Part shown: positions 4,339 to 60,562 of the stretch, piece after piece
Numbering within the stretch: position 1 is the stretch's first letter
Layout: the number at the start of each line of letters is the position of its first letter
Position numbers and translations under genes: made by a program
DNA from: Homalodisca vitripennis
Taxonomy: Eukaryota; Arthropoda; Insecta; Hemiptera; Cicadellidae
DNA: 64,000 bases
Reading direction: 5' to 3'
NCBI RefSeq assembly: GCF_021130785.1
Contig: NC_060211.1
Span: 123,019,001-123,083,000 of the forward strand
The notes under the pieces: model-generated
Seen by the model: only the letters and a program-made list of their open reading frames with translations
The model's database searches: none
Told to the model about the DNA's origin: nothing

Positions 4339-9738
<5,400 letters not shown>

Positions 9739-21000: not shown

Positions 21001-21076
<76 letters not shown>

Positions 21077-21231
21077 AAATATATTTTAATCTATTACAGT
21101 TACAAATTTATAAACAAAAACAATGATTCAATTAAAGGATGTAAAGATTTTACAACAAATAAACTGATTTACATTTTATTTTGACAAAAGCCTGGCTTGA
21201 AATATTAAATTCATATTTATAACAGCTATAC
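20224..21231 (-). other. Channel intron with (AT)n
   Basis: GT-AG intron between the two channel exons. It contains an (AT)n microsatellite at about 21004-21072 and nothing else recognisable. Confidence 0.85.
21004..21072. repeat. (AT)n microsatellite in the channel intron
   Basis: About 69 bp of alternating TA. Confidence 0.95.
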
Positions 21232-43538: not shown

Positions 43539-43605
<67 letters not shown>

Positions 43606-43617
43606 TATATATATATA
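43539..43617. repeat. (AT)n at the left flank of the Polinton
   Basis: Alternating AT with one AATA interruption. The last six bases before the element are TATATA. Confidence 0.95.
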
Positions 43618-43989
43618 AGTAGATAATAATATGGGGTTCCTGGCGCACTTTCGGAGCCAACCGAAAAGCAATGTAAAATACTGTTCAATGTACCATAAAG
43701 GAAGCTGAGAAATAACACAGCAAATCTCAATGAAAAATTAACCGAATCTACAGTCGTTCGTCTCCAAAAGCGATCGGTACATTACTATCTACTCTGTGGA
43801 ATGAAAAAATTAACCAAATCTACAGCTGTTTGCTTCTACTTTCTTAAGCTGTGCTTTGTAAAATGTTGTCAAATCTGCTACGAATAAAGGAAAAATCTTC
43901 GAAATCTTAATAAAATTTAATCAATTTAAAACATTTTTACTAAAAACATACTGTACTTTAATAAAAAACTTTTCTACTAAATAAACAAC

Positions 43990-44545
43990 ATGAACTCACC
44001 AAAGTCTCTACAATTTCTAGCATTAAAACAGTGCAACAAAGATGAATTCAGTGAATTGCCGGTTTATTTTCAACAACAGTTGATACCGTCTTCGATACTT
44101 TCCTTAAATGATACAGAATTCAAAGAACTTGTAAAGTCTTTTGCAGAAAAAACGTCTAATGGAGTGTTTTACTATCGGCAAAAAACTAAAAAAGTAAGGG
44201 ATTACATATTTAATATAATTACGAAAGATATTGAAAAGAAAGTAAAAAATAAACAAACAGAGAGTTTTCATCGTTTTTTATGACATTTTTTCCCATATTA
44301 TACGTCCTTTAAAGATAATCAAGACTTAATTGATGAATTTCTTAGGAATTTTTGTGAGTATCAAGATTTATCAACACAATTCATTAAAGAGCATTATAGA
44401 ATTTTTCTTATAGAATATAGCCACATTTTGTGTGAAACAAAACGTATTACTGTAGATAATATTCCATGTGATTCCTATGAAGAAAGACACCAACTATGGT
44501 TTATCAAAACAGTACTATGACGTGGGGAGGGACTGCAAGTTTTAG
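43990..44545 (+). pseudogene. Polinton terminal-repeat gene, left copy
   Basis: The first part, from ATG at 43990 (MNSPKSLQFLALKQCN), stops at 44283. The reading then continues in another frame from about 44282 (HFFPYYTSF) to 44545. The amino end has the SLQFLALKQC...LPVYFQQQLIP pattern of a SOCS-box or F-box-like helical segment, which would recruit a ubiquitin ligase; that is a weak resemblance. The rest is helical and unknown. A one-base excess in GGTTTATC near 44501 (GGTTATC in the right copy) gives this copy a different end. Its upstream box is TTTTCTACTAAATAAACAAC, a leadered variant of the element's start motif. Confidence 0.65.
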
Positions 44546-44555
44546 AGTGAAGACT

Positions 44556-44684
44556 TTATTCTACAAAGTTAATTGTTATAATTTCTTTATCTTTAATAGT
44601 CTTCTTTCCAGTAACAACCAAGTGTAATTTTTCATTTTTGTTTAATTCTTTAATCTTTTTCTCATCCAAAACAAGAAACTCCAT
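44556..44684 (-). CDS. OB-fold-like small protein, internally deleted left copy
   Basis: Reads 42 codons from the ATG at 44684, just after TTTTTTCTATTTAA. Compared with the intact right copy (59263-59568), codons 5 to about 63 are missing. The frame is kept: MEFL is joined to VLDEKKIKELNK and the same carboxyl end INFVE. An exact in-frame loss of 59 codons at the inner edge of the terminal repeat is notable. Whether the short product is made is unknown. Confidence 0.7.
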   Translation of the reverse strand: MEFLVLDEKKIKELNKNEKLHLVVTGKKTIKDKEIITINFVE

Positions 44685-44699
44685 TTAAATAGAAAAAAA
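44682..44699 (-). promoter_or_regulatory. Polinton start motif
   Basis: TTTTTTCTATTTAAATGG on the minus strand, identical to the box before the right-hand copy at 59263. Confidence 0.6.
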
Positions 44700-45335
44700 T
44701 TCAAAGTCAAAAAGTGCAAAACCATTTCTCGGTCGACCTTTTCTCCTCCCTCTGTCTCTTTCTCTCTCCCTCTCTTTTTATGCCTATGACACGATCACTT
44801 CTGCCGTTTATAGGCTAGGATCTATATTCAGGCTAGAGAGAGAGAATAGCGAGATACGGATAGAGAAATGGTTCCGGAATACGATCTGAATACTTCTGAA
44901 CTTGGTGTTTCTCCGCTATGGCCACTCGCATTGAAACAGTTCAGAAGTAAACTTCCTAACCGACCAAACCGAATTCGCGGACATATATACTGAGCAAGAA
45001 ACTACAACATCCAATCGAGAAGTAAAAATTTAACAAATTAATTTAAAATATAATTTGAAAATTACAAGTAACAAAATGTACGCATATTTAAAATAGGTAA
45101 AATTACCTTACATTTAAAAAAAGAAAATGTTATAATAGTTAACGGAAACACAATTTTTATTCTTTAAAGCAATCTGCATTACCGACATTTTAGTTCCGAA
45201 AGAATGCGCTATGCACGAGGTGTGCCACTACAGACCGACCATCACGATAATCGCTTTCGCCCGCGTCATATCCGTTAGTGATATCACGCCGTGAGAGGCA
45301 CAATCGTTGGTTTACAATCACCATTTAGATAAATA
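44700..45335. other. Polinton spacer without a gene
   Basis: A pyrimidine tract (TTTCTCTCTCCCTCTCTTTT) lies at about 44738-44778. It is followed by a GC-richer patch at 44800-45000 and another at 45180-45320 containing short inverted bits. Composition differs from the AT-rich Polinton genes, so this may be an insertion or the remains of genes deleted from the left end. Confidence 0.45.
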
Positions 45336-45353
45336 AATTTTTCTATATAAATG
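45336..45353 (+). promoter_or_regulatory. Polinton start motif before polymerase
   Basis: AATTTTTCTATATAAATGG; the ATG inside it opens the polymerase reading frame at 45351. Confidence 0.65.
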
Positions 45354-48300
45354 GAGCGCGATAAAATATCATGTCCGTTCTGCAAAATAGAAATTTTAAG
45401 AAAAAACTATGATCGCCATTATAATTCTAAAAGTCATGAAAAAAACAAGCAAATTTACAATAATGAACTAAATTATTTAAGACAGTGGGCTAGAGAAAAT
45501 CAAATTGCCGATCACGAAAACATGAATAATATAGAAAAATTGCGTGAATTAAAGAAAGACTTTAAGGAAGATAAAAAAGATCTCAATCTATTGATGATAA
45601 TGATGAAAAAATTCAATCAATCGCTGAAAAATTGTCCATTGAAACAAACGATAAAACTAAGTCTGAAATAATCGAAGAAATTGACAAAACTCTTAACGAA
45701 AAACCTGAAAATATCATAGATGTTGAAGTTTTATCCTCAATACACGGTCTTTTCAAGCAATACATTTTAACAAATTTAAACGATAATTCCATGTCAATTT
45801 ACAAATATCTATCAATTATGAGGCCAGAAATTTAAAGTTTAATAGAAAAATTTCAAGACACTGTGAAAAATAGTAAAGGATATCTCTCTTTGGAATGCGA
45901 ATACGAACGAACTTTAGTAAACGGTGAACCACAAACTTGCCCAATGTACTTTACTATAAAAGCAGATGAAATCTTTGACGTAAACGACTTTATTACTAAG
46001 CAATTTAATAAATTAACACATCGAGAACAAACGAATAATCCAAATAAAGGTTCCGGATGGACATTTAAAAGTTGTAAACAACTAGTTTTGAGCCTTAACA
46101 AACACGAAATGATGAATGCAGGATCATACATCGATTTACCAAAGAATATCAAAGATAAAAAAGCTTGTATAAATATAAAAAATAGAGATGATTTTTGCTT
46201 TATTTACTCAATAAGATGTGCTATTGAAAAACCAGAAAGAGACTGTGAACGTGTAAAGCAATACGAAAAATTTGTGAATGACGAAATATTTTCAGGTTTT
46301 GAGTATCCAATGTCTCTGAAAGATATACAAATATTTGAAAAACGAAGCTACAATTCCAAGTATAAGTATCCAACAATGTCTATCAATGTCTACAGTTTTG
46401 ATGAAAATATTAACATTGTTCCGTTACAAATTTCTGAAAAATATGACGCTGAAACAAACATTGATTTATTGTATGTTAAACAAGATGATAAATCTCATTA
46501 TGTTTTGATAACCGATTTAAATAAGCTTGTTTCTTCGCAGTTGTCTAAACATAAAGAAAGAAAATTTTTGTGTAGAAGATGTTTAAGCCATTTTTACAAA
46601 TCTGGAGATTTAACAGATCACTTAGAAATTTGTAAAAATCATGAAGTTTGTAAGCCAATTATGCCATTTCCAGGTCAAACAACTAAATTTACTAATTATC
46701 AAAAGAAATTTAACCATCCGTACGTAATTTATATGGACTTTGAGAGCATATTGGAAAAGATTCCGACATGTAAGAACAATCCAGAAAGATCAACTACAAC
46801 CAAGATTCAGAAGCATATTCCTTATGGTTTTACTCTATATTTAGTGTCGAATGTGACCAATCGCATGTACAAACCGATATGTTATCGTGCCAAAAATGAA
46901 GAAGATTTGAAAAACGTCCCGACAAAATTGTTTGAAGAACTCGATAAATTATCAAAGTACATAGCCAAAAAATATAATTCAAAGAATACGAAGCCTATGA
47001 AATTGACAGAAGAAGAAGAAATTTCATATCAAAATTCAAACGTTTGTCATATCTGTGAATGGTCTGCTTATGATATTGGGTCAGTTCAGTATGGTTTTAC
47101 TCCTGATAGTTGGAAAGATAAGAGTTATAATAAAGTAAGAGATCATTGTCATTTAACCGGCAAGTTTCGAGGCGCAGCTCATGCATGTTGCAATCTGAAT
47201 TTGAAATTTCCACAAAACATTCCAGTTTTCTGTCACAATATGAGTAACTATGACACACATTTGTACATAAAAGAATTAGCTAAGAAATATGGAAACGTTG
47301 ATTTGATCGCAAACTCAGAAGAAAAATATATAAATTATTCAGTAAATTCTGGATATGGCTATGAGTTCGACAATTATAAGCCAAGAAAGTTTGTAAAGTT
47401 TTCGTTTGTAGATACATTCAGATTTATGGCCTCATCTATTGAAAAATTAGCGAAAAATTTAAAGAAAGAAGACTTCAAACATACAAATCATTTTATACAG
47501 GATGGATTGAATGAAATTATAGAAAGACAGCCAAATGACGACGACGAGATTTTTAAAATATTGTCTGGAAAAGGAATATTTCCCTATGAATTTATCGATA
47601 ATATTGAAAAACTTGATTACAAAGAAGAGCTGAAAATTCAAGATTTCTATTCACTTTTGACAGACGAGAGCATATCTGAGAAAGATTATCAACACTACTT
47701 AAATGTATGGAACAAATTAAAAGAGAAAAATCTAGGGAATTACTCTGATTTGTACAACATTTAAGATGTTTTATTGCTTGCTGATATATTCGAAAATTTC
47801 AGAAACATTTGCCTTAATTGTTATAAACTCGATCCGGCACACTATCTAACAGCTCCCAGTCTCGCATGGGACGCAATGTTAAAATTAACGAAAATTGAGC
47901 TTCAGCTAATTAACGATTATAATATGTATTTGATGATTGAAAAAGGCATTCGCGGGGGCATTTCTCAGTGTATTAAGCGATATGTTAAAGCAAATAACAA
48001 ATATTTGAAAGATTTCGATAAGACAAAGCCCGAAAACTATTTGTTATACGTTGATGCTAATAACCTTTATGGGTATGGCCTAATGCAAAAACTGCCGTTT
48101 AGTGATATCAAGTGGATGGATCCAAAAACTTACACAACTGCAGAATGGAAAGAAACAATTTTGGAACTCACTGGCGACGAAGATTATGGCTATATTCTCG
48201 AAGTTGATCTTGGATATCCAACGAATTTACACGAACATCACAAGGATTTACCTCTTGCTCCAGAACATTTTAAAAACAAACTTTGCACAACTCTACTGGA

Positions 48301-49109
48301 TAAAACTGAATACGTTGTTCATTCGAGAAATTTGAAGTTCTATTTGGAACAAGGTATGATTTTGAAACATGTGACTAGAGTTATTGCATTCGATCAGAAG
48401 CCTTTTATGAAAGAGTACATTGATTTTAATACTAATATGAGGACCAAAGCTACAAGTGACTTTGAGAAGGATTTTTTATAAGCTGATGAACAACTCAGTT
48501 TTTGGAAAAAGTATGGAAAATGTGCGAAATAGATGCGATATTAGACTAGGAAATGAAGAATTTTCAATGAAACAGGCCAAGAAAACGAACTTCAAAATCT
48601 TCACTATCTTTGACGACAACTGTATAGCGAGTCACATGTACAAACAGAAAGTAAAATTTAACAAGCCGATTTACATAGGGTTTTCAGTACTTGATTTGTC
48701 AAAGTTGTTAATGTATAAATTTTATTATGAAAAATTAAAGAGTTTTGATCCAGATTTGAATCTGTGTTACATGGATACAGACAGTTATTTTCTAGAATTG
48801 AAACGTGATCCTTACAAAATTATTAAAGAAAATATAGATGACTTTGATACAAGCGATTTTCCAAAAGATCACGACTGTTTCGCTACTAAAAACAAGAAAG
48901 TTATTGGAAAATTTAAAGACGAGCTAAATGGCGAAATCTTAGAAGAATTTTGTGGATTGAGATCGAAAATGTACTCGTACAAATATCTAGACAAAAATCC
49001 AGTAAGATGCAAAGGGATTAAGAGAAGCGTTGTAAATAAAACAATAAATATCGAAAACTTGAAGAAATGTTTGTTCGAAGATAAAGAAGAATTTAGGGAG
49101 ATTGTATAG
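45351..49109 (+). pseudogene. Protein-primed family B DNA polymerase (Polinton PolB), broken
   Basis: This would replicate the element. An amino-terminal C2H2 finger (CPFCKIEI...H...H) opens the frame. Exonuclease motifs follow: YMDFESI (ExoI), HNMSNYDTH (ExoII) and a YSDLYNI end (ExoIII). Between them is a zinc/HNH-like insert, VRDHCHLTGKFRGAAHACCN, typical of Polinton polymerases. Polymerase motif A is YVDANNLYGYGL, B is KLMNNSVFGKSM, C is CYMDTDSYF, and the KxY region is GLRSKMYSYK. Breaks: a frameshift in the A-run near 45575, TAA at 45833-45835, TAA at 47762-47764, and a frameshift in the T-run near 48472. The carboxyl end appears deleted into the integrase (about 49100). Catalytic residues are all present. 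Confidence 0.95.
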
Positions 49110-50028
49110 AATTGCAGCAAAATGTTCAAAATGTAAGACAAATAAGAGTAAATTTATAAAGAATCCTTATGAAAAACAAGTAAAGAAAGAATTGAAGAAT
49201 AAAGAAGAAATCGAGATTGAAGCTAGAGAAATTCATGCACCAGTACGAAAAAAGTTTAAAAAGAGAAAAATTATAACTTTAGGAATTGACGATTTATGGG
49301 CAGCAGATTTAGTTATAATGTCTAACTATTCAGATCAAAATGATGGATTCAAGTATATTTTAAATGTTATTGATACTTTCTCAAAATATGCTTGGTCAAG
49401 AGCTATCAAAAGAAAAAACGGTAAAGATGTTTCAAAAGCCTTCGAAGATATAGTAAAAGACGCGATAAAGATCAATCACAAACCACCAAATCTACTTCAT
49501 ACAGATAAGGGTTTAGAGTTTAAAAATAAAGAATTTAACGAAGTTTTGAGAAAATACAACATTAAGATTTATCATACTGAAAACGAAGAGAAATCAAGTA
49601 TTGTAGAGAGATATAACAGAACTCAAAATGAAAGAATGAAGATTCTTTTTGAGATTAATAAAAACTTTAAATGGATCGATATTCTTCAAGAAATCGTAAA
49701 GAAATATAACGATACTGTTCATAGCACAATCAAAATGAAGCCTAAAGACGTAGATAAAGATGCATATAAAGAGTTATTAGAGTCGGTTTTTAAGTATGTT
49801 CCACCAGAAATTCACACGAAAACTAAATTTAAAGTCAATGATCATGTAAGAATTGTTAGTAAAAAACAAACATTTTCGAACAAATATAAGAACAATTGGT
49901 CAAGAGAAATCTTTGTAATTTATCAAATTAATAACACAGATCCTGTAACTTATAGTATAAAAGATTTAAATAATGAAGAAATAACCGGAAATTTCTATGA
50001 ATATGAATTGAGAAAGTCAAAGCTGTAA
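49102..50028 (+). CDS. Retrovirus-type integrase (rve), amino end missing
   Basis: A DDE integrase core: first Asp in DLWAADLV, second in LLHTDKGLEF, Glu in SSIVERYNRTQ, about 35 residues after the second Asp. An SH3-like tail follows (FKVNDHVRIVSKKQ...NWSREIFVI), as is usual for Polintons. It would insert the element and create the 6-bp duplication. The zinc-binding amino-terminal domain normally ahead of the core is absent. The frame instead begins in the last codons of the polymerase (overlap 49102-49109) with no start motif, which points to a deletion joining the two genes. The core reads without interruption. Confidence 0.93.
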   Translation: MYRIAAKCSKCKTNKSKFIKNPYEKQVKKELKNKEEIEIEAREIHAPVRKKFKKRKIITLGIDDLWAADLVIMSNYSDQNDGFKYILNVIDTFSKYAWSRAIKRKNGKDVSKAFEDIVKDAIKINHKPPNLLHTDKGLEFKNKEFNEVLRKYNIKIYHTENEEKSSIVERYNRTQNERMKILFEINKNFKWIDILQEIVKKYNDTVHSTIKMKPKDVDKDAYKELLESVFKYVPPEIHTKTKFKVNDHVRIVSKKQTFSNKYKNNWSREIFVIYQINNTDPVTYSIKDLNNEEITGNFYEYELRKSKL

Positions 50029-50045
50029 TTTTTTCTATATAAATG
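50027..50045 (+). promoter_or_regulatory. Polinton start motif
   Basis: TTTTTTCTATATAAATGG directly at the start of the zinc-finger gene; identical to the box at 50459-50477. Confidence 0.65.
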
Positions 50046-50438
50046 GAGTCTCAAAAGAAATGTACAAAGTGTCAAGAATTTAAAGATTTTGAAGCTTTTT
50101 ATAAAAATAAGAATAAAAAAGAAGGATTAGGGTCTATGTGTAAGGATTGTCGTAGTAAATATGAGAGAGAATTATACGAAAAAACAGAAAAATTAACTTT
50201 AGAAGAGAAAGAATGTTGTATTTGTAAAGAAATTAAGAATATTTCAGAATTTCACAACTGGCATTATAGTAAAGATAAAAAACAAGCTTTTTGTAAGGAT
50301 TGTGCTATAAGAATTTTCCGAGAAAGTCAAAATAAACCGACTCATTGCGAATGTGGAAGAGTTCTTCAATGGTTACCTAGTTATGCTAAACATTTACAAA
50401 CAAAATATCATAAGTCAAGAGTTTTTAATAAAATTTAG
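50043..50438 (+). CDS. Small zinc-finger protein
   Basis: 131 codons with three likely zinc sites. CTKC...CKDC is at residues 7-40, CCIC...CKDC at about 58-90, and a C2H2-like end (HCECG...KHLQTKYH) follows. Two of the sites share a spacing of about 20-25 residues, suggesting internal duplication. Proteins of this kind often bind nucleic acid; the role here is unknown. A partly decayed tandem copy follows at 50475. Confidence 0.75.
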   Translation: MESQKKCTKCQEFKDFEAFYKNKNKKEGLGSMCKDCRSKYERELYEKTEKLTLEEKECCICKEIKNISEFHNWHYSKDKKQAFCKDCAIRIFRESQNKPTHCECGRVLQWLPSYAKHLQTKYHKSRVFNKI

Positions 50439-50458
50439 TAACATTTTCATCGTGTAAT

Positions 50459-50477
50459 AATTTTTTCTATATAAATG
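50459..50477 (+). promoter_or_regulatory. Polinton start motif (duplicated)
   Basis: Same TTTTTTCTATATAAATGG as at 50027, copied with the gene. Confidence 0.65.
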
Positions 50478-50821
50478 GAGTCTCAAAAGAAATGTACAAA
50501 GTGTCAAGAATTTTATAAGGAAAAGAATAGAAAAGACTGTTATTGTAAGGAATTATATGATAAAATGAACAAATTAACTTTAGAAGAGAAAAAGTGTTAC
50601 TTTTGTAAAGAAATTAAAAATATTTCTGAATTTAATAACTGGCAGTATAGTAAAGATAGAAAAGATGCTTTTTGCAAAGATTGTGCTAAAAAAATTTTCA
50701 GCGAAAGTTATAAAAACGAAATGCCTTGTGAATATGAAAAAAAAAATTCTACGATGGTTACCTAGTTATGCTAAACATTTACAAACAAAATATAATAAAT
50801 CGAGAGTTTTTAGTAAAATTT
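50475..50821 (+). pseudogene. Second, decayed copy of the zinc-finger gene
   Basis: Starts with the same MESQKKCTKCQEF as its neighbour, then shows a deletion after residue 13, and loses frame in an A-run near 50740. The rest, to WLPSYAKHLQTKY and FSKI, is still readable in another frame up to 50821. Its last bases overlap the end of the BRO-like gene on the other strand. Confidence 0.8.
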
Positions 50822-51620
50822 AGAAACATTTTCATCGTGTAATTTAGATATTCTATAAATCAGTCGAGATTCTGCCATATTTGTAGTAAAATGATTTCCG
50901 TTGTATAAAATATTCAAAGATTCTTTCATTTGGTTGTAGAGATTTATACTATTTGGATCTCCTTGTCTTAATAAAATTTCCATTTCTGGGTAATCAATTT
51001 CAAGTTCTTTCAATCTTTTCGGTATTTCTCTCTTTTGAGCTCTGATAACGTAATAAGGATATTCCCACATGTGATTCTTCTTAATTAATACAAAAACATG
51101 GTGTTTTTTCTTAGCAAAATCTTTACAAACAAGGTCTGGTTTCATTAAGTCAATTTTTACACTTTGTTTTGCGATTATTTCCGTTTTTATTTCATCTTTA
51201 ATTTGCAAGTGTTTAACTTCGTCCTCTAAATATTTAATCTTGTTTTCAAGTTTGTACTCACCAAATTTACGAATACTTGGCAAAACTTCTTTTGTAACCC
51301 ACTTTTTAAACAATTTCGATTCTGGCTTATTAGATCTCAAAATTAAAGAATATAAACCAGATTCATTAACGAAAATAGTATGTTTTTTGAATATTTTCTC
51401 GGGGTCTATGGGATAGACTCCTGTAATTTATACATTCAAAAGTTGTTTTATCGTCATTATCGACATTATTTATGATAGCTTGCCTCGTGTTTTCATATTC
51501 TAAAATTTCTGCAACATCTTTTGCTTTGAACCAAATTTCGTTATTTTCGTCAACAATCGTAAAAATTTCTGTATTATTGAATTTGAGTTGATTATTTATT
51601 AGATCTACAACTGTCTCCAT
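50810..51620 (-). pseudogene. BRO-N domain protein, frameshifted
   Basis: From the ATG at 51620 the minus strand encodes the amino part of a BRO-N domain (FTIVDENNEIWFKAKDVAEI...NTRQAI). After a frame change at about 51370-51400 it gives the rest (VNESGLYSLILRSNKPESKL and WVTKEVLPSIRKFGEY), then a lysine-rich coiled coil and a globular tail ending at 50810. BRO-N proteins bind DNA and are common in baculoviruses, entomopoxviruses and phages. The gene is convergent with the zinc-finger pseudogene and overlaps its end. Confidence 0.88.
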
Positions 51621-51636
51621 TTAGATAGAAAAGAAA
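51618..51636 (-). promoter_or_regulatory. Polinton start motif
   Basis: TTTCTTTTCTATCTAAATGG on the minus strand; a TCTA core then TAAATGG. Confidence 0.6.
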
Positions 51637-51639
51637 TTT

Positions 51640-51720
51640 AACTAGTAATTTTTATTTTGAGTGTAAAGTCCAGATTCATTGATAAAAACAGTGTTTTTTT
51701 TTTTGAAAGTTTGAAGGTAA
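51640..51720 (-). pseudogene. Vestige of a second BRO-N gene
   Basis: On the minus strand a short reading after a long A-run gives TVFINESGLYTQ, the same motif as the neighbouring BRO-N gene (VNESGLYSL) but with different bases. It is a relic of an older tandem copy. Confidence 0.55.
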
Positions 51721-51747
51721 GAACGATTCGTTCCCCCCCTTGATTCA

Positions 51748-52483
51748 TCATTCTTTCGACAATCTTAAATATATTGTTGTTTTACTCTCATTATTTAATA
51801 AATTTCCCTCAGAGTCTTGTATAGTTAGAACGATTTTTTGAATTCTTTTAATATTTTTTCTAATTGGAATATAATCGATTTCATTCGGATTTTCACTGAT
51901 TTTTGATCCATAAGCAACATTTGGGAAAAATGTGTACAAAATTTCAGATTCTTTGTGTAAATGTTCGGTATGATTTTCAAAACTAGGTTCAACGAGATTA
52001 CAATGTACTTCAATTACATCAAACGGTCTAAATTTTTGCGTTTTATTTCCTAAATATACCTGATTTGGCTCAATAGTTTCTTGAACAAACCCTAATAAAT
52101 CTACAATAATTGCTGAAAACATTATTCTTACTGGTGATTTTATTTGAATTTTATTAGAGAGATAATTTTTTTTGCATTTCAAACTTGTTTTCGTCAAAGT
52201 TTAAAGATTTATCTGATTGTTTGAATGTTTTCAGATAATTTTTAAGGGAATTTTTTATTTGATGGAAAGTATAATATCCTTTGTTTAAACCATAATATTT
52301 TGTTACGTTCTTCTCACTAAATCCTATACAATAAGGAGAACTTTCACTAATATTTATTACAAAATTGTCAGAATAAAAACCGCTTAAACCGATAAAATAA
52401 TTTGATTCTTCCTCTAAGTGTATAGGATGTTCCAAGTTTAAAAATAATTGAGAGCTTTCTGAAGTCAACTTGAACAGCTTCAT
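51748..52483 (-). pseudogene. Probable minor capsid (penton-like) protein, one frameshift
   Basis: Frame 1 runs from the ATG at 52483 (MKLFKLTSESSQLFLNLEHP). Frame 2 takes over near 52165-52175 in an A-run and ends at 51748 (TTIYLRLSKE). Landmarks match the conserved Polinton protein thought to be the single jelly-roll minor capsid protein: YFIGLSGFYS, GYYTFHQIKNSL, IEVHCNLVEPSF, LYTFFPNVAYGSKI and IQDSEGNLLNN. It would form capsid vertices. The assignment is from memory of the family, not a search. Confidence 0.75.
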
Positions 52484-52500
52484 TTTCGCTATTTAAATGG
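52481..52500. promoter_or_regulatory. Divergent start motif with palindromic TTTAAA
   Basis: The minus-strand ATG (52481-52483) and the plus-strand ATG (52497-52499) are separated by only 13 bases containing CTATTTAA. The box reads CTATTTAAATGG one way and CCATTTAAATAGCG the other, so the minor capsid and ATPase genes seem to share a single core. Confidence 0.6.
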
Positions 52501-53160
52501 AGAAATTTTTAAAGCAAAAAGATCAGATAAAACTTCAAACGTTTGAAGAAAATAAGAAAGATCAACCAATCAGATTGTTAATTGTTGGTTCAAGTGGATG
52601 TGGAAAAACAACTTTATTATTGAATTTTATCTACAATAGGTTGATTCCTTATTCCAATTTGTATGTTTTTAGTAAATCTTTAGAACAAGACGCCTATAAA
52701 AAATTACAAGAAAGATTTGAAAATATTGAGAAAAACTTAAAACAAAAAAATATCACATTTTTATAATGCTTCTGAGGACATAGTTCCATTAAGCGAATGT
52801 AAACCCAATTCGTTAATCGTTTTTGATGATTGTATGTTGGAAAATCAGGACGTTATTAAGGAATATTTCGTAATGTCTCGTCACAAAAACATATCTTGTA
52901 TCTATCTTTCCCAATGCTTTTCAAAGGTTGATAAACAAGTTATAAGAAATAACCTGAATATGTTGTGTATTTTTAAGCAAGATGATCACTATTCGAGAAA
53001 GATTTATAACAATTATGTGGGATCTGATATGAGTTTTAACCACTTTATTGAGTTATGTGATAAAATTTGGAAGGAAGACTACGGATTTTTAACTATTAAT
53101 CTAACTTTGAAGCCTAAAAATGGCAAATATTTGAATAAATTTTCCAATATAAACGTGTGA
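52497..53160 (+). pseudogene. Genome-packaging ATPase (FtsK/HerA superfamily), one frameshift
   Basis: Walker A is IVGSSGCGKTTLLLNF (codons 31-46) and Walker B is SLIVFDDCM. A sensor region IYLSQCFSKVDKQVIRNN follows, as in poxvirus A32 and adenovirus-like packaging motors. It would pump element DNA into a capsid. The frame shifts once in the T-run near 52760, so the plus frame ends at 52766 and resumes by about 52770. Length after correction is about 220 codons, normal for Polintons. Confidence 0.93.
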
Positions 53161-53167
53161 TAATCTA

Positions 53168-53328
53168 GTTGTTTTCATGTTTTTACGTTCACGTTTACGT
53201 TTCGTGTTCTCGTTTTTACGTTCCACGTTCACGTTTTACGTTTCACGTTCACGTTTTACGTTCCACGTTTCGTGTTCTCGTTTTCACGTTTCGTGTTCAC
53301 GTTTCCACGTTCCACGTTTACGTTTCAA
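53168..53328. repeat. CACGTT minisatellite
   Basis: About 160 bp built from hexamer-like variants of CACGTT, ACGTTT and TTCGTG, for example TTTACGTTCCACGTTCACG. It sits between the ATPase end and the next start motif. Unlike the AT-rich surroundings it carries many CG dinucleotides in a CACG or ACGT context. There is no coding potential. Confidence 0.85.
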
Positions 53329-53346
53329 AATTTTCCTAAATAAATG
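53329..53346 (+). promoter_or_regulatory. Polinton start motif
   Basis: AAAATTTTCCTAAATAAATGG; a CTAAA variant of the core, then TAAATGG. Confidence 0.6.
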
Positions 53347-54654
53347 GCGAACGTAACTTCAGAAGAAGCAAAAAAACTTGATCAAATAGAAAAGAAATTA
53401 ATCAAAGAATTTAAAGAACAGATTCGAATTGATGAAAAAGAACAAGAATTTATTCAAAAAATCAATCAACCTGTAACTTCTGCAATAAAAAACGTTGAGG
53501 GCAAAATTGAAAATGTTTTAAGTGATAATCAAAATTTGATGAATTTGGTTCCAGTTGTACGACAATTTGCCGATATTTCAATTCCAGAATCTGAAGAGTT
53601 TGAATTGCCAAAATTACCATCTTCAACACCATTTAGACCTCGAATCATTGAAGACTCTACCATAGTTGAACCAATAAGTCCTGGAACAACGGATATAATA
53701 ATTGGTGAAATTGGTAAAAAATTTCTTCCTAGAGCGAAGGATGATAAATTTGGTTTGTATTGGGACAGAAAAAAGAAAAGTTTTATGATTGGAAATTTGC
53801 CCGTGAATTTTGAGCATAATGATATCATTATTAATAAAAAAACATATGAAGGAACTCAAGGTTTATGGAGATTATTAACAGGCACTGATGTTCCAAAAGA
53901 CGGTTTATATTCTGAAGAAGACTTGAAAAAGTATACTGAAATTTTATGGAAATCTGATTCAATTTACAAAAATAATGATCCATCAACTAAGAAACCAAAG
54001 TCAAGTAAAGGTAAAAAATATCTCAATTTGATTAAACCAATTTGGGAAAAAAGAATCGAAGGATCAGGTGTGAGAAAATACAGTGATAATAAGATTGAAT
54101 ACAGATATATCGACGATTTGACAAAACTCGATGGAATTATTAATTATATTTATGCTCAAGAAAAGGCTGGAAACAACAATTTTTTGAACGAAAAGAAAGC
54201 GATTAAAGATTTTATTTCGAACAAACTTGATGAGGTGATTGAAAAACCTGATGGAATTAAATATTTAAAACGAATTTTGCCGGCAATAAGTTCATCTATG
54301 ATTGAGGGTAGTGGACTTTTGAATGATTTTATCAACAATTTACCTTTTGAATTACACGTACCAACTTATCAGTATCTGGGCCTGGCACAAAACTCGAAAA
54401 AAGACTAAAAAGAGGAGATCCTGGTATAAATAAATTAGATCAAGCTGCTATGGAACACGATATTTTTTATGCAAAACATAGAGACACAAATTCCAGACAT
54501 ATAGCAGATAAAGTTTTTGCAAGATAAAGCAAAGGATAGATTTTTATCAAAAGATGCTAGTTTAGGTGAAAGATTTGTTGCGCTTCCAACAGCTGGAGCA
54601 ATGTTTTTGAAGAGAAAACTAGGAATGGGAATCGAAGAGAACTTGAAATTTTAA
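53344..54654 (+). pseudogene. Polinton PLA2-like (parvovirus VP1-type) protein, frameshifted
   Basis: The first 350 codons are a helical and low-complexity lead with a conserved FGLYWDRKKKSFMIGN and GLWRLLTG region, as in other Polinton proteins. After a lost G near 54382 the frame continues with a PLA2-like signature: a YLGPG-type loop, then KLDQAAMEHDIFYAKHRD, where HD is the catalytic-type pair and the loop binds calcium in active relatives. A second shift near 54517 leads to the SLGERFVALPTAGAMFLKRK tail, ending at 54654. In parvoviruses such a domain opens endosomal membranes; a similar virion role here is inferred. Confidence 0.8.
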
Positions 54655-54665
54655 CTATATAAATG
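54648..54665 (+). promoter_or_regulatory. Polinton start motif
   Basis: AATTTTAACTATATAAATGG at the start of the 54663 gene; it begins within the tail of the previous gene. Confidence 0.6.
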
Positions 54666-55124
54666 GAGGTGAATGTAAATTTCAGCAAAAATCAGAAAGA
54701 AAAAATAAAATCCGCTTTTAAGAAGAAAATACCCGTTAGTATTCAATTTAAAATAGATCAACTAAAAAATGGCGAAGATAAGATATTTTTAACAAATAGA
54801 CAATACAATAAACTCGAAAAACATAAGAAAAACAATAAAGGAACCAGAATAGAATTTCCTTATAATCAGTTGAAAGAACTTAAAAATGGTGGACTTTTGA
54901 AAGATTTATTAGATTTTGGAGAAAATATTCCAGTTGTTAAAAATGTTGTTCCTTATGTTCGTAAAGCTGCTCCAATCGTTAAAAAGGATGTGATTCCTAT
55001 TGTTCGAAACATTTTAAATTGGTTAGATAAAGAGTTGGAAGATGTTACAGGATCTGGATTAGATGAAAAAACTTTGAATTACGTGAAATCAAACATTAAA
55101 AAAAATTTGAAATCAAACCTTTAA
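54663..55124 (+). CDS. Conserved Polinton structural-type protein, 153 codons
   Basis: Amino half: a lysine-rich beta/alpha segment with ...KSAFKKKIPVSIQFKIDQLK and LTNRQYNKLEKHKKNNKGTR, matching a protein family repeatedly seen in Polintons. Carboxyl half: amphipathic, hydrophobic helices (GGLLKDLLDFGENIPVVKNV, PIVKKDVIPIVRNIL). The glycine-pair and hydrophobic helix resemble adenovirus minor core or membrane-active proteins (pVI or pX like), a resemblance only. It is intact and stands directly before the protease, whose reading starts in its last codons in another frame. Confidence 0.7.
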   Translation: MEVNVNFSKNQKEKIKSAFKKKIPVSIQFKIDQLKNGEDKIFLTNRQYNKLEKHKKNNKGTRIEFPYNQLKELKNGGLLKDLLDFGENIPVVKNVVPYVRKAAPIVKKDVIPIVRNILNWLDKELEDVTGSGLDEKTLNYVKSNIKKNLKSNL

Positions 55125-55135
55125 CATTCGGGGAA

Positions 55136-55564
55136 TTGGAAGAAATCTGCAAAAATATTAAACATTTTAGAGGAATCTTCATGAGAGATACATTACCTGA
55201 AAAAGTTAAGAAATTTGAATGTGGAATTGTGAATTTAGACCCGATTATGGGAAGTGGAACGCATTGGATTTGTTATTATAAAAATGATAAGAATGCATGT
55301 TATTTTGATTCGTATGGAAGAATTGAGGACAAACCACCTATAGAATTGATTAAATATTTGAAAAAATCAAGCGTCTACTACAATGATTCTCAGATTCAAG
55401 ACTATAAAGATCCCCCAATTTGTGGTCATTTATGTGTTTTTGTTTTGAATGAACTGAGTGATGGTAAAGATTTTAAAGAAGTTGTTAACAAATTATTACT
55501 TAATAAATATGGATTCACAAAATATTTTTTGACGTATTTGGAACACAAATTATTCAAAATGTAG
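55136..55564 (+). CDS. Adenain-like cysteine protease
   Basis: Catalytic residues are His in SGTHWICYY, Asp in CYFDSYG and Cys in ICGHLC, in the order of adenovirus protease and Ulp1-type enzymes (family C5/C48). The protein would mature capsid proteins. About 142 codons, near the usual length of Polinton proteases. No ATG or start motif precedes the conserved beginning (FGELEEICKN, FRGIFMRD). In this frame the reading runs on upstream through the end of the 54663 gene, so either a frameshift once joined the two genes or translation starts at the ATG of MRDTLPEK near 55181. Confidence 0.9.
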   Translation: MEEICKNIKHFRGIFMRDTLPEKVKKFECGIVNLDPIMGSGTHWICYYKNDKNACYFDSYGRIEDKPPIELIKYLKKSSVYYNDSQIQDYKDPPICGHLCVFVLNELSDGKDFKEVVNKLLLNKYGFTKYFLTYLEHKLFKM

Positions 55565-55572
55565 GTAATAGT

Positions 55573-56554
55573 TTGAATTTTGATAGTTTGAGAAATGAGT
55601 TTGATAACAAGTTAGAAAATTTATTACAAAACCTTCCAGATTCAGATATGTTTGCTGTCGAGATTGAAGATTTTAAAGCAGAATATGATAACAAACTTGC
55701 AAATTTCATGAGTTCAAATGAAGTTGCTGATAAAATAAAAACATTGGAAAAAGAAGTTGATGATGGTGTAAAAAAATTATTTACCAATTTAATGTCTCAT
55801 ATCGAAAAAGCTGATAAAATTACTGAAGCGATCAAAGTTGAAAAGAATTATGTTAGTTTGGCTAATAAGAAAAGAATTGTCGGTGTTCAACCTGGTATTG
55901 ACAAACATGATGTTGTTGTTAAAGAACAAATTTTAAAACCTCTAAAATTATCAGAAAACATCGATATTGTTGATTTACATGATCCGAATGTTTAAAAATG
56001 CCTTAGATTTTAAAGGAAAAAGAATTAGCAGTGTTAGTAAAGGAATTAATCCATTTGATGTTGTTGTAATGATTCAATTAGAAGATCCTATTAAAATGTT
56101 TAATGAACTAAAACAAAATTATGAGAATCATAAACAGCATGTTAAAGATTTTACAACAGAAGTCTATGAAAAACTTGATGAAAGAAGTAAAAGATCAGTA
56201 GACGATGTTGGTGAATTACTTGATAAAGTAAATAAACTAGAAGAAAACTTTAATACATATAAAAATAATGTTAATGAATTAGTTAGTGAAGTAGTTACAA
56301 AAATTCTGGAAAATTTTGATACACATTTCAATGAGAAAGTAAACTTTTTTGAAAATTTTGGTACACGTTTCAATGAGAAAGTAACACATAATAATGAATT
56401 ACTTAAAAGAATAGATGATCAATACTCTTTATATCTCGATAAAGTAAATAAACTAGAAGAAAACTTTAATAAATTTAAAGAAGATGTTAATAAATCTTTT
56501 GAAAACATTGATAACAGATTTAATAGATTAGGCGGTTATGATGATTCATTTTAA
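55573..56554 (+). pseudogene. Coiled-coil, fibre-like structural protein, one frameshift
   Basis: Two frame pieces (55573-55995 and 55967-56554) joined by a shift near 55985-55995. Two short repeated modules appear: LANKKRIVGVQPGIDKHDVV, then DFKGKRISSVSKGINPFDVV. They match the NKRI..V..P.D..DAV repeat of phage tail and fibre proteins. The rest is heptad-rich coiled coil with internal repeats (KVNKLEENFN twice; ENFDTHFNEKV and ENFGTRFNEKV). No start motif precedes 55573. A trimeric spike or fibre is the likely role, by inference. Confidence 0.6.
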
Positions 56555-56572
56555 ATTTTCCCTAAATAAATG
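56554..56572 (+). promoter_or_regulatory. Polinton start motif
   Basis: AAATTTTCCCTAAATAAATGG, nearly the same as the box at 53329. Confidence 0.6.
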
Positions 56573-56714
56573 GCGCTCATATATTGTGTGAGATGTAAAG
56601 AAAAAACTGCAACAAATGATATAAAATACTATGCAAACATCAATGGAGTTAAAAGAATTTCTGGAAAAATGTGCTGAATATAACGCAAAAAAGAGCCAAT
56701 TTATAAAAACTTGA
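56570..56714 (+). pseudogene. Tiny zinc-ribbon protein (DUF5679-like), frameshifted
   Basis: From the ATG at 56570: MALIYCVRCKEKTATNDIKY, then INGVKRISG. After an extra A near 56668 the frame closes at 56677, while the old frame goes on to a lysine-rich end at 56714. CVRC with a later KNGR-like and GKC motif matches a small zinc-ribbon family found in Polintons and large DNA viruses. The last cysteine of the second pair is replaced by Tyr. It is too short for most gene finders. Confidence 0.6.
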
Positions 56715-56722
56715 TTTTGAAA

Positions 56723-56745
56723 TTTTTTCTTAATAAATAGAGATG
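56723..56745 (+). promoter_or_regulatory. Polinton start motif, shifted
   Basis: TTTTTTCTTAATAAATAGAG then ATGG: the TAAAT is followed by AG, and the true ATG lies 5 bases further at 56743. Confidence 0.5.
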
Positions 56746-57141
56746 GCGGGACATTACAGTGCTTTCGATCTTTTTATAATGCAACACGAAAGAGATTTGA
56801 AAAAAGAACATTGGGATGATATTTCTCAAAAATATGAATTATCCGAAGATATGATGAGATTATACGTAAACAAATTGAATTGGTATAACATTGCTAAATA
56901 TCAAACTTTATCATCAGAGTTCATTCAAGAAAATATACATTATCAATTAAAAGATCATATGTCTGTTCTTTGCCTCTATCAACACTTGAGTATAAAGTTT
57001 TTGGATGAAAATAAAAATACAGTTGATTGGAACAATATTATAGATAGCGGTTACTATCCTGTGCAAATTTTATTGAAATATGTGACCGAGATCGCAAAAT
57101 TTAAGGAAGAGAATCCTGAATATGACGAAGTAGATCATTAA
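56743..57141 (+). CDS. Repeat protein of the W-x-I-x-x-Y/Q viral type
   Basis: 132 codons, intact. Degenerate repeats of about 20-25 residues: HWDDISQKYELSEDMMR, NWYNIAKYQTLSSEFIQENI, then LYQHLSIKFLDENKNTVDWN. This 'W..I..YQ.LS..FI' repeat is common in Polintons, mimiviruses and other large viruses; the function is unknown. Acidic and helical. Confidence 0.7.
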   Translation: MAGHYSAFDLFIMQHERDLKKEHWDDISQKYELSEDMMRLYVNKLNWYNIAKYQTLSSEFIQENIHYQLKDHMSVLCLYQHLSIKFLDENKNTVDWNNIIDSGYYPVQILLKYVTEIAKFKEENPEYDEVDH

Positions 57142-57255
57142 AAATGACTCTAATCTTTTTAATTATTTTACTAAAATTTATATCTTTTCTTATAAAAACG
57201 TACATTAGATCGATGAAAAAATGATATCTTTCTTATACATGATGTTTAAAATTTC

Positions 57256-57276
57256 TAAATTTTCTCTTATTAAATG
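57256..57276 (+). promoter_or_regulatory. Polinton start motif before the major capsid gene
   Basis: TAAATTTTCTCTTATTAAATGG; the ATG is 57274. Confidence 0.6.
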
Positions 57277-58470
57277 GCGGACTATAGAAAATATGCTAGT
57301 GATATTGAAAGGGCGGAGTTTAAAAATTTCTATCCAATTAGTAAACAACATTTGAATGAACCGAATAAAATAACTGAGTTTAATATTGATTTTGGAGATA
57401 ATTTTTGCTCGTCTAACTTCCAGTTTTATATTTCTGGAACTTTAACAAAACAAGATGGTCAAGCATATCTTGGAACTGATAATGTTAGATTAATCGATAA
57501 TTTTATACCGTTTTTATTTTCTAAGATTGAAGTAAGAAAACACAATAAATTGATAGAAGAAGTCGAAAAACTGTGGCCAATTAAGCACAATTAAAGGAAC
57601 TATTTCGTATTCAAAAAGTGATGTTATTTCTCAAACTTCTAATGGCTTTGAATCAGATTTTAAATTTGGTGTTTTTGAAGCAGCTGGAAATTTATCTCAT
57701 TTTGGATTAGGATTTTTTGAAAATGTTACTATTCCGATCTATAAAGGAGGATTTTATCTAAGTTTTATAAGAGCAGAAGACGATGATGTGATTCTGAAGA
57801 CTGCAACTGGAAATGTTATGCCTGTTGATGGAAAAATAACAATTACAGATTTTTTTTATTAGAGTTCCAATGATTGATTATAAAACCACGAGTAAAATTA
57901 GGTTGATTGATGAAATTACAAAAAGTCAAAACATTATGTTTAATTTTCTAGATTGGCAATGTATTGAACAAAAAGGTATTTCCGGAACAACTTATTCGTT
58001 CGATATCACAAATATTTATAGAAATATCTTCAATCCCAAGTTCGTTATCATAGGTTTTCAAACAGATAGACAGAATAATCAAGAAAAAAAATCCTTCAAA
58101 GTTTGATAGTTTGGATGTAAAAAATATCAGAGTAAAATTGAACGGTTCTTATTATCCAGATGAATTACAAAATTTAAACATTTCCGGAGGTCTTTTCAGA
58201 ATCATGTATCAGATGTATCAAGATTTTAAGAAATTTTACTGTAATAATAAGGAAATGTATTACAATCCTAAAGAATTTTTAGCGAATAGACCTATTTATG
58301 TCATTGATACAACAAAGAGTATGAGAAATATTTCTGGTTCAAAGAACGATATAATTATCAATATGGATTTTCAAAAAGCTGTTACAAACGCGATTTGTTA
58401 TGTTGTTGTGGTTTCTGAGAAATTTTTAGCCTATGATGTGATTAAGAACGATATTAGAGAAATTCAGTAG
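57274..58470 (+). pseudogene. Major capsid protein (double jelly-roll), three frameshifts
   Basis: Four frame pieces keep the order of Polinton capsid proteins. First comes FQFYISGTLTKQDG...FLFSKIEVR, then a TIKGTISYS segment, NLSHFGLGFF and IPIYKGGFYLSF. Next is PKFVIIGFQTDRQNN and last NIRVKLNGSYYPDELQNL to MYQMYQDFKKFY and the end at 58470. Shifts lie near 57565, in the T-run at about 57850 and in the A-run at about 58088. The protein would form the hexon-like capsid shell. At about 400 codons it is somewhat shorter than usual. Confidence 0.92.
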
Positions 58471-58708
58471 TTTAATGATGTTCATATTATTCTCTTTCAT
58501 TCCTTCTAAAACTTCAAAAATATACTCTTTCGCTGATGAAAAATCTCGATTTCTTCCGGAATAATCTTTGTAATCATAGACAAAATATCCTAAATAGTTG
58601 TACAATAGAATGAAATTATTTATATTTATCTCTGTTGTAGAAATGTAAACATAAACATTTGTGCTGAAAAAATTTATACCTCGGCACACTTAGTTCCATA
58701 ATCTCCAT
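58426..58708 (-). pseudogene. Small unknown minus-strand gene, one frameshift
   Basis: A start motif (TTTTTTTTATAAATGG) puts the ATG at 58708. That frame ends after about 30 codons, but a shift in the T-run near 58670 connects to a coding-like frame (FFSTNVYVYISTTEININNF, AKEYIFEVLEGMKENNMN) that runs to 58426 and overlaps the capsid gene end. No family recognised. The clear start motif is the best reason to believe it. Confidence 0.4.
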
Positions 58709-58736
58709 TTATAAAAAAAATCTTTTTGTTTAAATG
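58706..58736. promoter_or_regulatory. Back-to-back start motifs
   Basis: CCATTTATAAAAAAAA (minus gene, ATG at 58708) abuts TCTTTTTGTTTAAATGG (plus gene, ATG at 58734). The two genes diverge with only 25 bases between their ATGs. Confidence 0.55.
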
Positions 58737-59229
58737 GAAGAGTATAATGCCAACTGTTACAAGTGTTATAATAGAGGAGAAATTATTGATAAAAGATATT
58801 TAGTTTGTAGAGATTGTAATTTAATTTTGTATGAAAGACCTAAACCTAAGAAATTTCGAAATAAACTAACACATTTGAATAATCTGCTTACAAAATTGCA
58901 ATATGGAGGTAAAAAACAAACACAATTTGTTACAGAATTTAGAAAACAGAATAAAAAATTTTTACTTATCTCTTGGAACCGTTGAAAAAAATTATTTTCC
59001 TTTTCAAAGAATACATTAGGTTTGTAGGTATCGATACACACGTTTATTATGAAAAGATATTACCTGTATTTTTTTATTATCTAGATGTAGAATTTGTTTA
59101 TGATTTTGAACCAGAAATCCTCGATGATTTTATAGTACATTTGGAGAAATTAAACGAAGAACCTCGTGAAAAGAATGCGGTTTTACTCACATTCTCCCCG
59201 ACTTCTCGAGTGAAGGTTAGCGAATTTCA
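58734..59229 (+). pseudogene. Zinc-ribbon protein, possibly a late-transcription-factor relative
   Basis: The amino end has a CxxC...CxxC ribbon (CYKC at residues 8-11, CRDC at about 25-28) and a basic linker (ERPKPKKFRNK). A helix LTHLNNLLTKLQYGG follows. After one or two frame shifts near 58960-58990 comes a helical tail (EYIRFVGIDTHVYYEKILPV, then a stretch rich in acidic residues). The layout of ribbon, 'H...LL..Q' helix and 'YYE.I' helix recalls poxvirus VLTF3-type factors. The resemblance is weak, and a generic TFIIB-like ribbon is equally possible. The next gene's start motif follows at 59247. Confidence 0.45.
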
Positions 59230-59246
59230 TTTTTTTCCGTCTTTGA

Positions 59247-59265
59247 ATTTTTTTCTATTTAAATG
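59247..59265 (+). promoter_or_regulatory. Polinton start motif
   Basis: AATTTTTTTCTATTTAAATGG at the 59263 gene; also the inner border of the right terminal repeat. Confidence 0.65.
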
Positions 59266-59568
59266 GAGTTCTTGAAAGAGTTAAATGATATTGGTGAATG
59301 CAAGTTTAAAGAGTATAAGAAGTTGAATGAATTAGAAGAAAAAAAGAAGTACAAAATCATGAATTTGGAGAAAATGAAAGATAAATTCGGGTTTACAATA
59401 ATTGCCGAGTTGGAAGATTGTAAAGTACACTTACCGAACAGATTTTTGACTGTTTTGGATGAGAAAAAGATTAAAGAATTAAACAAAAATGAAAAATTAC
59501 ACTTGGTTGTTACTGGAAAGAAGACTATTAAAGATAAAGAAATTATAACAATTAACTTTGTAGAATAA
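59263..59568 (+). CDS. Small OB-fold-like protein, intact
   Basis: 101 codons. The arrangement LEEKKKYKIMNLEKMKDKFG then FTIIAELEDCKVHLPNRFLT followed by LHLVVTGKKT fits a small Polinton-conserved family that reads like an oligonucleotide-binding (OB) barrel. A single-strand DNA-binding role in replication would make sense but is inferred. It lies across the inner edge of the right terminal repeat. The left repeat carries an internally deleted version (44556-44684). Confidence 0.65.
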   Translation: MEFLKELNDIGECKFKEYKKLNELEEKKKYKIMNLEKMKDKFGFTIIAELEDCKVHLPNRFLTVLDEKKIKELNKNEKLHLVVTGKKTIKDKEIITINFVE

Positions 59569-59578
59569 AGTCTTAACT

Positions 59579-60134
59579 CTAAAACTTGCAGTCCCTCCCC
59601 ACGTCATAGTACTGTTTTGATAACCATAGTTGGTGTCTTTCTTCATAGGAATCACATGGAATATTATCTACAGTAATACGTTTTGTTTCACACAAAATGT
59701 GGCTATATTCTATAAGAAAAATTCTATAATGCTCTTTAATGAATTGTGTTGATAAATCTTGATACTCACAAAAATTCCTAAGAAATTCATCAATTAAGTC
59801 TTGATTATCTTGAAAGGACGTATAATATGGGAAAAATGTCATAAAAAAACGATGAAAACTCTCTGTTTGTTTATTTTTTTACTTTCTTTTCAATATCTTT
59901 CGTAATTATATTAAATATGTAATCCCTTACTTTTTTAGTTTTTTGCCGATAGTAAAACACTCCATTAGACGTTTTTTCTGCAAAAGACTTTACAAGTTCT
60001 TTGAATTCTGTATCATTTAAGGAAAGTATCGAAGACGGTATCAACTGTTGTTGAAAATAAACCGGCAATTCACTGAATTCATCTTTGTTGCACTGTTTTA
60101 ATGCTAGAAATTGTAGAGACTTTGGTGAGTTCAT
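59579..60134 (-). pseudogene. Polinton terminal-repeat gene, right copy
   Basis: From the ATG at 60134 the same MNSPKSLQFLALKQ start as the left copy runs to 59871, where an extra T in a T-run stops it. The second half (from MTFFPYYTSFQDNQ at 59842) is open to 59579. This copy keeps the GGTTATC reading that the left copy lost, so its carboxyl end (YYDVGRDCKF) is probably ancestral. The SOCS/F-box-like start is the only hint at function. Confidence 0.65.
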
Positions 60135-60503
60135 GTTGTTTATTTAGTAGAAAAGTTTTTTATTAAAGTACAGTATGTTTTTAGTAAAAATGTTTTAAAT
60201 TGATTAAATTTTATTAAGATTTCGAAGATTTTTCCTTTATTCGTAGCAGATTTGACAACATTTTACAAAGCACAGCTTAAGAAAGTAGAAGCAAACAGCT
60301 GTAGATTTGGTTAATTTTTCATTCCACAGAGTAGATAGTAATGTACCGATCGCTTTTGGAGACGAACGACTGTAGATTCGGTTAATTTTTCATTGAGATT
60401 TGCTGTGTTATTTCTCAGCTTCCTTTATGGTACATTGAACAGTATTTTACATTGCTTTTCGGTTGGCTCCGAAAGTGCGCCAGGAACCCCATATTATTAT
60501 CTA

Positions 60504-60505
<2 letters not shown>

Positions 60506-60562
<57 letters not shown>
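60506..60562. repeat. (AT)n at the right flank of the Polinton
   Basis: Alternating AT. Together with 43539-43617 it was presumably one microsatellite before the insertion. Confidence 0.95.

Follow-up and report, generated by a model that had tools for sequence, protein, structure and literature searches.

It was shown previously that late promoters of vaccinia virus contain the sequence TAAAT, typically followed by a G and overlapping the start codon, with upstream T residues of which the one at the 10th nucleotide is conserved and the others less so (PMC11980589), and that late mRNAs of poxviruses bear poly(A) leaders at their 5' ends (PMC6831550); a late-type TAAATG signal was reported in an entomopoxvirus gene (PMC3061580). 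Among Polinton relatives, type 4 EMALEs carry at their genes a TCTA motif flanked by AT-rich sequence (PMC8547959), and of all EMALEs only this type responded to, and was reactivated by, CroV, the virus which owns the motif (PMC10945749). Adintovirus/Polinton elements of insects, with an rve integrase, capsid protein, packaging ATPase and DNA polymerase B, have been described as well (PMC8363768); the word promoter does not occur in that paper. In the literature covered, which took in little of the subscription journals and preprints, promoter motifs are known for virophages and EMALEs, and we found none for an animal Polinton. Here we describe a Polinton with that same gene set, its DNA polymerase B being putative, in the leafhopper Homalodisca vitripennis, lying in a stretch of 64,000 nucleotides (hereafter, the window; all coordinates refer to it, and a minus sign after a position marks the reverse strand). 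Our analysis suggests that another virus, through its transcription machinery, switches on or formerly switched on this Polinton family, which is abundant in the host genome and bears a short box similar to poxvirus late promoters at most of its gene starts.

The original prediction, made from the letters of the window, held that at least twelve genes on both strands begin inside one and the same box. All 13 TAAATGG starts that it listed were found in their places and on their strands, and the shared box is real; two of them are duplicates (44684- is the terminal-repeat counterpart of 59263, and 50043 has its tandem duplicate in 50475), which leaves 11 independent starts. These align without gaps from −17 to +5 and share a layout of fixed spacing, composed of an A-rich block, a T-run, CTA, two bases and TAAATGG. 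A is found at −17, −16 and −15 in 8, 9 and 9 of the 11 starts, respectively; T at −13 in 9, at −12 in 10 and at −11 in all; C at −8 in 9, T at −7 in all and A at −6 in 8. TAAATGG, common to all 11 because it was the selection criterion, is followed by A (8 starts) or C (3), which gives ATGGCG in 3 starts and ATGGAG or ATGGAA in 8. The invariant positions are thus the T at −11, the T at −7 and, by selection, TAAATGG itself. TCTA, proposed as the usual core, occurs at only 4 of the 11 starts and was rejected in this role; CTA is present at 8. Two boxes, 56737 and 52492-, are additional to the earlier list and end in TAAATAG.

A chance origin of the box was rejected on the basis of 500 dinucleotide shuffles. 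In positions 44250-60520, which include one terminal repeat, TAAATGG was found 17 times (shuffle mean 3.47, maximum 9), as compared with 8 occurrences in the remaining 47 kb of the window; 4 of the 17 (45321-, 48925, 49668 and 53629-) lie away from recognised gene starts. The longer pattern, TTTT..CTA followed by 1-3 bases and TAAATGG, occurs 10 times in the element, two of these being duplicates, against a shuffle mean of 0.01, and is absent from the other 47 kb of the window. When a scoring matrix of 25 positions, built on the 11 starts, was scanned over the whole window, its 15 top sites were all starts in the element, with scores of 17.1-29.3, 11 of the 15 being training sites; the top site outside the element scored 14.2. 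In leave-one-out scoring, each start still came out among the 17 best-scoring positions when both strands of the window were considered.

The box is also abundant in the host genome. Its 22-base form, AAWTTTNNCTAWWTAAATGGMG, gave 10,692 exact matches in 2.30 Gb and none with the reversed pattern, whereas a differently spaced pattern gave 617 matches versus 622 in the control. Among the matches listed, all at the start of one contig (C1), many cluster with a spacing like that of the element. As the element in the window contains 6 exact matches, these numbers suggest, by a rough calculation, about 1,800 element-equivalents. Over their aligned parts, most of the copies retrieved share about 81-100% identity with the element in the window.

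Comparison of lineages revealed that, at three genes, the box outlasts the DNA preceding it, as judged from gapped identity to the window in the box (−17 to −1) and in the 28 nucleotides before it. Of 25 loci, 24 were counted (7 for the polymerase gene PolB, 5 for the 56570 gene, 9 for the capsid gene and 3 for the 59263 gene); at 59263, locus L097 had no anchor and was left uncounted, and L100 had its anchor one base off. Identity in the box versus upstream was 99/119 versus 108/196 for PolB, 83/85 versus 81/140 for the 56570 gene and 48/51 versus 49/84 for the 59263 gene, where about half identity may, by our estimate, come from gapped alignment of unrelated AT-rich DNA alone. BLAST homology begins near the same edge: for PolB at the 5' edge of the box (45332-45335) in five of six loci and at 45326 in L101; for the 59263 gene at 59246 in four of five, L103 beginning within the gene; and for the 56570 gene at 56552-56554 in 7/10 loci, those with at least 30 nucleotides upstream. 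At the ATPase start, 11 of the 17 copies covering it have about 28 extra nucleotides between the T-run and CTA.

The existence of boxes devoid of an ATG argues for the box being a transcription signal. In the window these are 56737 and 52492-, reading TAAATAGAG and TAAATAGCG; their actual ATG lies 6-9 nucleotides downstream of the TAAATAG end, and they keep the rest of the box, including the RGMG tail (trailing GMG). The second overlaps the box of the ATPase on the opposite strand. All 10 copies of the 56743 gene that were compared retained the TAAATAG form. ATG-less boxes (TAAATAGAAG) are arranged in tandem in other copies of the element, and about 55 conserved nucleotides follow each of them. 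Such an array was found in seven of eight loci picked by the PolB box (L077 and L097-L102; not in L103) and in all six picked by the ATG-less pattern itself (L114-L119). In these 13 loci the arrays contain 1-17 boxes on a single strand, spaced by 74-161 nucleotides, and a TAAATGG box stands 109-198 nucleotides past the last of them on the same strand. That box opens the PolB N-terminus in 12 of the 13 loci, two being frameshifted soon after; in L114 the sequence examined ended before PolB could show. The PolB of the window has no array upstream. In the host genome, the ATG-less form gave 298 exact matches, versus none for the reversed control. The array unit (from L102 and L114) had no match in Rfam, and the folding of five units (z from −0.09 to −4.49) indicated no firm RNA structure. 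Small non-coding RNA genes and decoy promoters are candidate roles for these arrays.

Closeness of the box to the poxvirus late promoter, noticed in the original prediction, is borne out by its layout, which matches the vaccinia consensus as given in PMC11980589. In all 11 starts the G following TAAAT completes the start codon, T occupies the 10th nucleotide upstream of TAAAT within a T-rich stretch in 9 of the 11, and in both systems some boxes, two of them here, do not overlap an ATG. Peculiar to the element are the conservation of CTA, an A-rich block ahead of the T-run, and the G after the ATG with A or C next to it, and the carrier is a Polinton in which no RNA polymerase was recognised. 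With Mavirus and type 4 EMALEs the element shares the presence of one motif on most genes, capsid and polymerase alike, of an integrating Polinton relative; unlike there, TAAATGG is what the starts have in common, the host belongs to the animals and not to the flagellates, and no helper was found in the viral contig collection.

One plausible explanation, to which we assign somewhat less than an even chance, is that the box serves most genes in this Polinton lineage as their core promoter, with initiation in TAAAT, and that it depends on a helper virus with transcription of the poxvirus late type. Transcription would begin within TAAAT of a self-contained core promoter overlapping the start codon, the 5' end of the mRNA lying at the A residues; since the mRNA would begin there, the translation start would fall at, or within a few bases of, this end. 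With intergenic gaps as short as some here (14 and 15 nucleotides, and 13 between the divergent ATGs 52483- and 52497), a leader could hardly fit in without reaching into the neighbouring genes. Slippage of the polymerase at this place, as in poxvirus late promoters, could produce a non-templated poly(A) leader replacing the missing one, and would put A at −3. Because no RNA polymerase was recognised among the genes of the element, the enzyme would be supplied by a co-infecting cytoplasmic DNA virus, which would make the Polinton a present or former satellite of the virophage kind in an animal. Genes combining Bro-N and DUF3627 occur in insect poxviruses, ascoviruses and baculoviruses, and we count in favour of a helper of this type that the BRO gene of the element, with both domains, stands under the same box.

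Several observations weigh against this explanation. The box was originally ascribed to nearly all genes of the element; it is borne by most, and no high-scoring box was found at the integrase (49063-50028), the protease-like frame (55100-55564) or the coiled-coil gene (about 55500-56554). The TAAATGG of the 58734 gene was lost in the lineage of L135, L136 and L138. All compared loci except those of the capsid gene had been selected through a box in that gene or one next to it. The capsid gene, whose box falls outside the search pattern, is a fairer test and shows a weak contrast (145/153 in the box versus 212/252 upstream), the upstream DNA differing among copies mainly by insertions and deletions. 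Ungapped counts (49/51 versus 31/84 for the capsid gene; 151/170 versus 91/280 for 10 hand-picked comparisons, with one sequence per lineage) overstate the contrast, since small insertions and deletions shift the upstream DNA.

Counted against it, too, are the viral contig collection, in which no full box and hence no candidate helper was found, and the distant contig and the zinc-ribbon gene described below. A loose form of the box gave 29 single hits in that collection, with at most two TAAATGG starts of open reading frames of at least 60 codons per locus; 27 single hits in prokaryote contigs were taken as chance. Pieces of PolB and the capsid protein used as queries revealed no relative among viral contigs, nor did PolB alignment in prokaryote contigs. 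A PolB motif pattern led to one distant Polinton-like viral contig (L035/L037; L037 is IMGVR_UViG_3300028392_002905), which was found again by alignment. None of its 13 listed open reading frames starts at TAAATGG; instead, a TATATATA-type sequence touches or lies near several start codons, and the start at 5964 reads TTTGTTTCTATATAGAATAAATG, where a T-run, TCTATATA and TAAATG follow one another in a similar order with wider spacing. The only conclusion from this contig is that not every such element has the box; perhaps it uses another promoter type, as is the case among EMALE types. The zinc-ribbon gene at 58734 could be considered a source of a late factor similar to VLTF-3, and we regard it as a weak lead. 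Among its 11 copies and pieces, four matched PF08792 (A2L zinc ribbon) below the cut-off (E 0.0052-0.48), the top match, L130, having an E of 0.0052 and 16.9 bits versus a cut-off of 22.9; three matched other zinc families as weakly, and four matched nothing. Other copies contain intact reading frames of 169-183 codons. Nothing useful was found for this gene among solved structures, and a single-sequence model (pLDDT 59.5) was too poor to search with.

The same box could instead be a short-leader promoter of the host RNA polymerase II, either a TISU/YY1-like element (AAATGGCG) or an initiator, active in the nucleus without any helper. Integrated Polintons do reside in the nucleus, and the TISU/YY1 consensus also merges promoter and start codon at AAATGGCG and is resembled by the three ATGGCG and eight ATGGAG or ATGGAA starts. 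However, a factor of this kind would require an ATGG core, which is missing from the ATG-less boxes (TAAATAGAG, TAAATAGCG and TAAATAGAAG); TISU does not include the conserved T-run and CTA, and the rest of the window has no TTTT..CTA..TAAATGG. We consider this explanation possible but doubtful, and rank above it, at slightly under even odds, a helper with poxvirus-type late transcription, because of the likeness to vaccinia and the precedent of Mavirus and EMALEs.

A late promoter held in common with a mimivirus-like giant virus, as in the pair of Mavirus and CroV, rather than with a poxvirus-like one, seems improbable. The T-run and CTA are present, and type 4 EMALEs, with their AT-flanked TCTA, are the sole responders to CroV (PMC8547959 and PMC10945749); yet the connection drawn in the original prediction from a TCTA core to the motif of Mavirus and its giant-virus host is not supported, as TCTA precedes a minority of the starts and the TAAATGG end is found in all. 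Hairpins serve as polyadenylation signals in giant viruses (PMC6723459), and no hairpin with a stem of at least 11 was found in the element, as against 18 in 42 kb of flank.

Far less probable is an ordinary TATA box with transcription starting about 25-30 nucleotides downstream and translation from a later ATG. In its favour, three of the 11 boxes read TATATAAA. Nevertheless, the first ATG beyond +18 is in frame in only one of 12 genes, the other 11 opening frames of 1-20 codons, and the PolB finger, the P-loop of the ATPase and Bro-N would be cut off; the earlier argument that the box cannot act as a usual polymerase II TATA box is thereby upheld, and its coding use with a downstream start is largely refuted. 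A translation-start context common to host genes has next to no probability and was rejected: box and ATG do adjoin in most genes, but all 11 starts have T at −3, which eukaryotic start codons avoid and where the Kozak context prefers A or G, ATG-less boxes and arrays exist, and the rest of the window has no box.

Assignment of the element to Polintons is based on its gene set at the Pfam level, together with characteristic motifs of PolB and of a protease. It has long terminal inverted repeats, an rve-type integrase (PF00665), and a double jelly-roll major capsid protein with an A32-like ATPase (PF21738 and PF04665). The gene at 45351..49109 we take to be a protein-primed DNA polymerase B, and the frame at 55100-55564 presumably encodes an adenain-like protease; neither this frame nor PolB, scanned in two pieces, had a Pfam hit. 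A phospholipase A2-like frame (54351-54527), lying 3' of the 354-amino-acid gene at 53344, is perhaps the broken tail of the latter. The open reading frame at 58708- has 30 codons in the window and 80 in copies L135, L136, L138 and L141.

As many frames are broken, the copy in the window looks dead, though its repeats are still nearly identical; arms 43805-44249 and 59875-60319 (445 nucleotides) are 100% complementary. Perfect arms next to frameshifted inner genes may reflect gene conversion, sequencing errors or the recent insertion of a copy that was broken beforehand. The ends of the element sit in AT repeats. A gene lies inside the terminal repeat itself (43990-44283 and 59871-60134 (-)), and is preceded by CTTTTCTACTAAATAAACAAC, a variant of the box that is shorter by one base and does not overlap the ATG. 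A degenerate repeat of the ACGTTT/CACGTT type, varying among copies, occupies 53160-53340, directly before the 53344 box. In L144 (716, plus strand) and L149 (1391, minus strand), a short Cys-containing reading frame, MEDDLIHCHKC..., begins at TAAATGG with a different upstream part and corresponds to none of the TAAATGG starts of the window. In the host flank, we assume a Penelope-like reverse transcriptase just left of the element, a Tc1/mariner remnant and minus-strand potassium-channel exons. Coordinates are collected in Table 1.

Table 1. Coordinates of the Polinton, its genes and its start boxes.
Feature	Position	Strand	Remarks
Polinton element, from repeat to repeat	43599-60524		contig C5 of the 2.30 Gb host genome
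Left terminal inverted repeat	arms within 43599..44673	none	98-100% complementary to right end
Right terminal inverted repeat	59451..60524	none	
Box of reading frame 44684-	44681..44701	-	terminal-repeat duplicate of 59263 box
Box of PolB (45351)	45335..45356	+	AAATTTTTCTATATAAATGGAG
DNA polymerase B gene (PolB), assumed	45351..49109	+	several broken reading frames; 32-46% match to L035/L037, and motifs
rve integrase	49063..50028	+	PF00665, E 7e-13; no box at an ATG
Box of 131-amino-acid Cys-rich gene (50043)	50027..50048	+	ATG 14 nucleotides past integrase stop
Box of tandem duplicate gene (50475)	50459..50480	+	
BRO gene, Bro-N plus DUF3627	50810..51620	-	frame broken near 51370-51430
Box of BRO gene (51620-)	51617..51637	-	
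Box of packaging ATPase (52497)	52480..52502	+	
ATG-less box (52492-)	52486..52512	-	TAAATAGCG; score 17.1; 9 nucleotides before ATG 52483-
Packaging ATPase (Pox_A32)	52497..53160	+	two frames; PF04665, 23.5 bits (cut-off 22.8), first piece
Box of 354-amino-acid gene (53344)	53328..53349	+	
Box of 153-amino-acid gene (54663)	54647..54668	+	
Protease-like frame	55100-55564		downstream of 153-amino-acid gene (54663)
Coiled-coil gene	about 55500-56554		
Box of small CxxC gene (56570)	56554..56575	+	
ATG-less box (56737)	56720..56742	+	TAAATAGAG; score 21.5; ATG at 56743
Box of major capsid gene (57274)	57257..57279	+	
Double jelly-roll major capsid gene	57274..58470	+	broken frames; PF21738
Box of reading frame 58708-	58705..58725	-	
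Box of zinc-ribbon gene (58734)	58717..58739	+	weak
Zinc-ribbon gene, CxxC..CxxC protein	58734-58985	+	copies in L120, L121, L123, L127, L129
Box of 101-amino-acid gene (59263)	59246..59268	+	
Flank regions assumed to hold the Penelope-like reverse transcriptase, the Tc1/mariner remnant and the potassium-channel exons	41364-43119, 38756-39446, 19951-21564		
ATG-less array of L114 (positions in L114)	200-2200	-	

A broader proposal would make this lineage, at about 1,800 element-equivalents, an animal virophage whose genes are on only during a cytoplasmic poxvirus-like infection, whose ATG-less arrays before PolB act as small non-coding RNAs or as decoys for late factors of the helper, and which constitutes an inducible antiviral system like Mavirus; we deem it unlikely as a whole. 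To our knowledge, the way in which animal Polintons express their virion genes is unsettled. With one fixed box of viral late type on the genes for capsid, polymerase and packaging, the satellite hypothesis can be tested directly. If dependence on a helper virus is true, parasitism of the virophage style on large DNA viruses would not be confined to protists but reach into animals, and the thousands of boxes in a genome such as this one would be a record of past helper infections.

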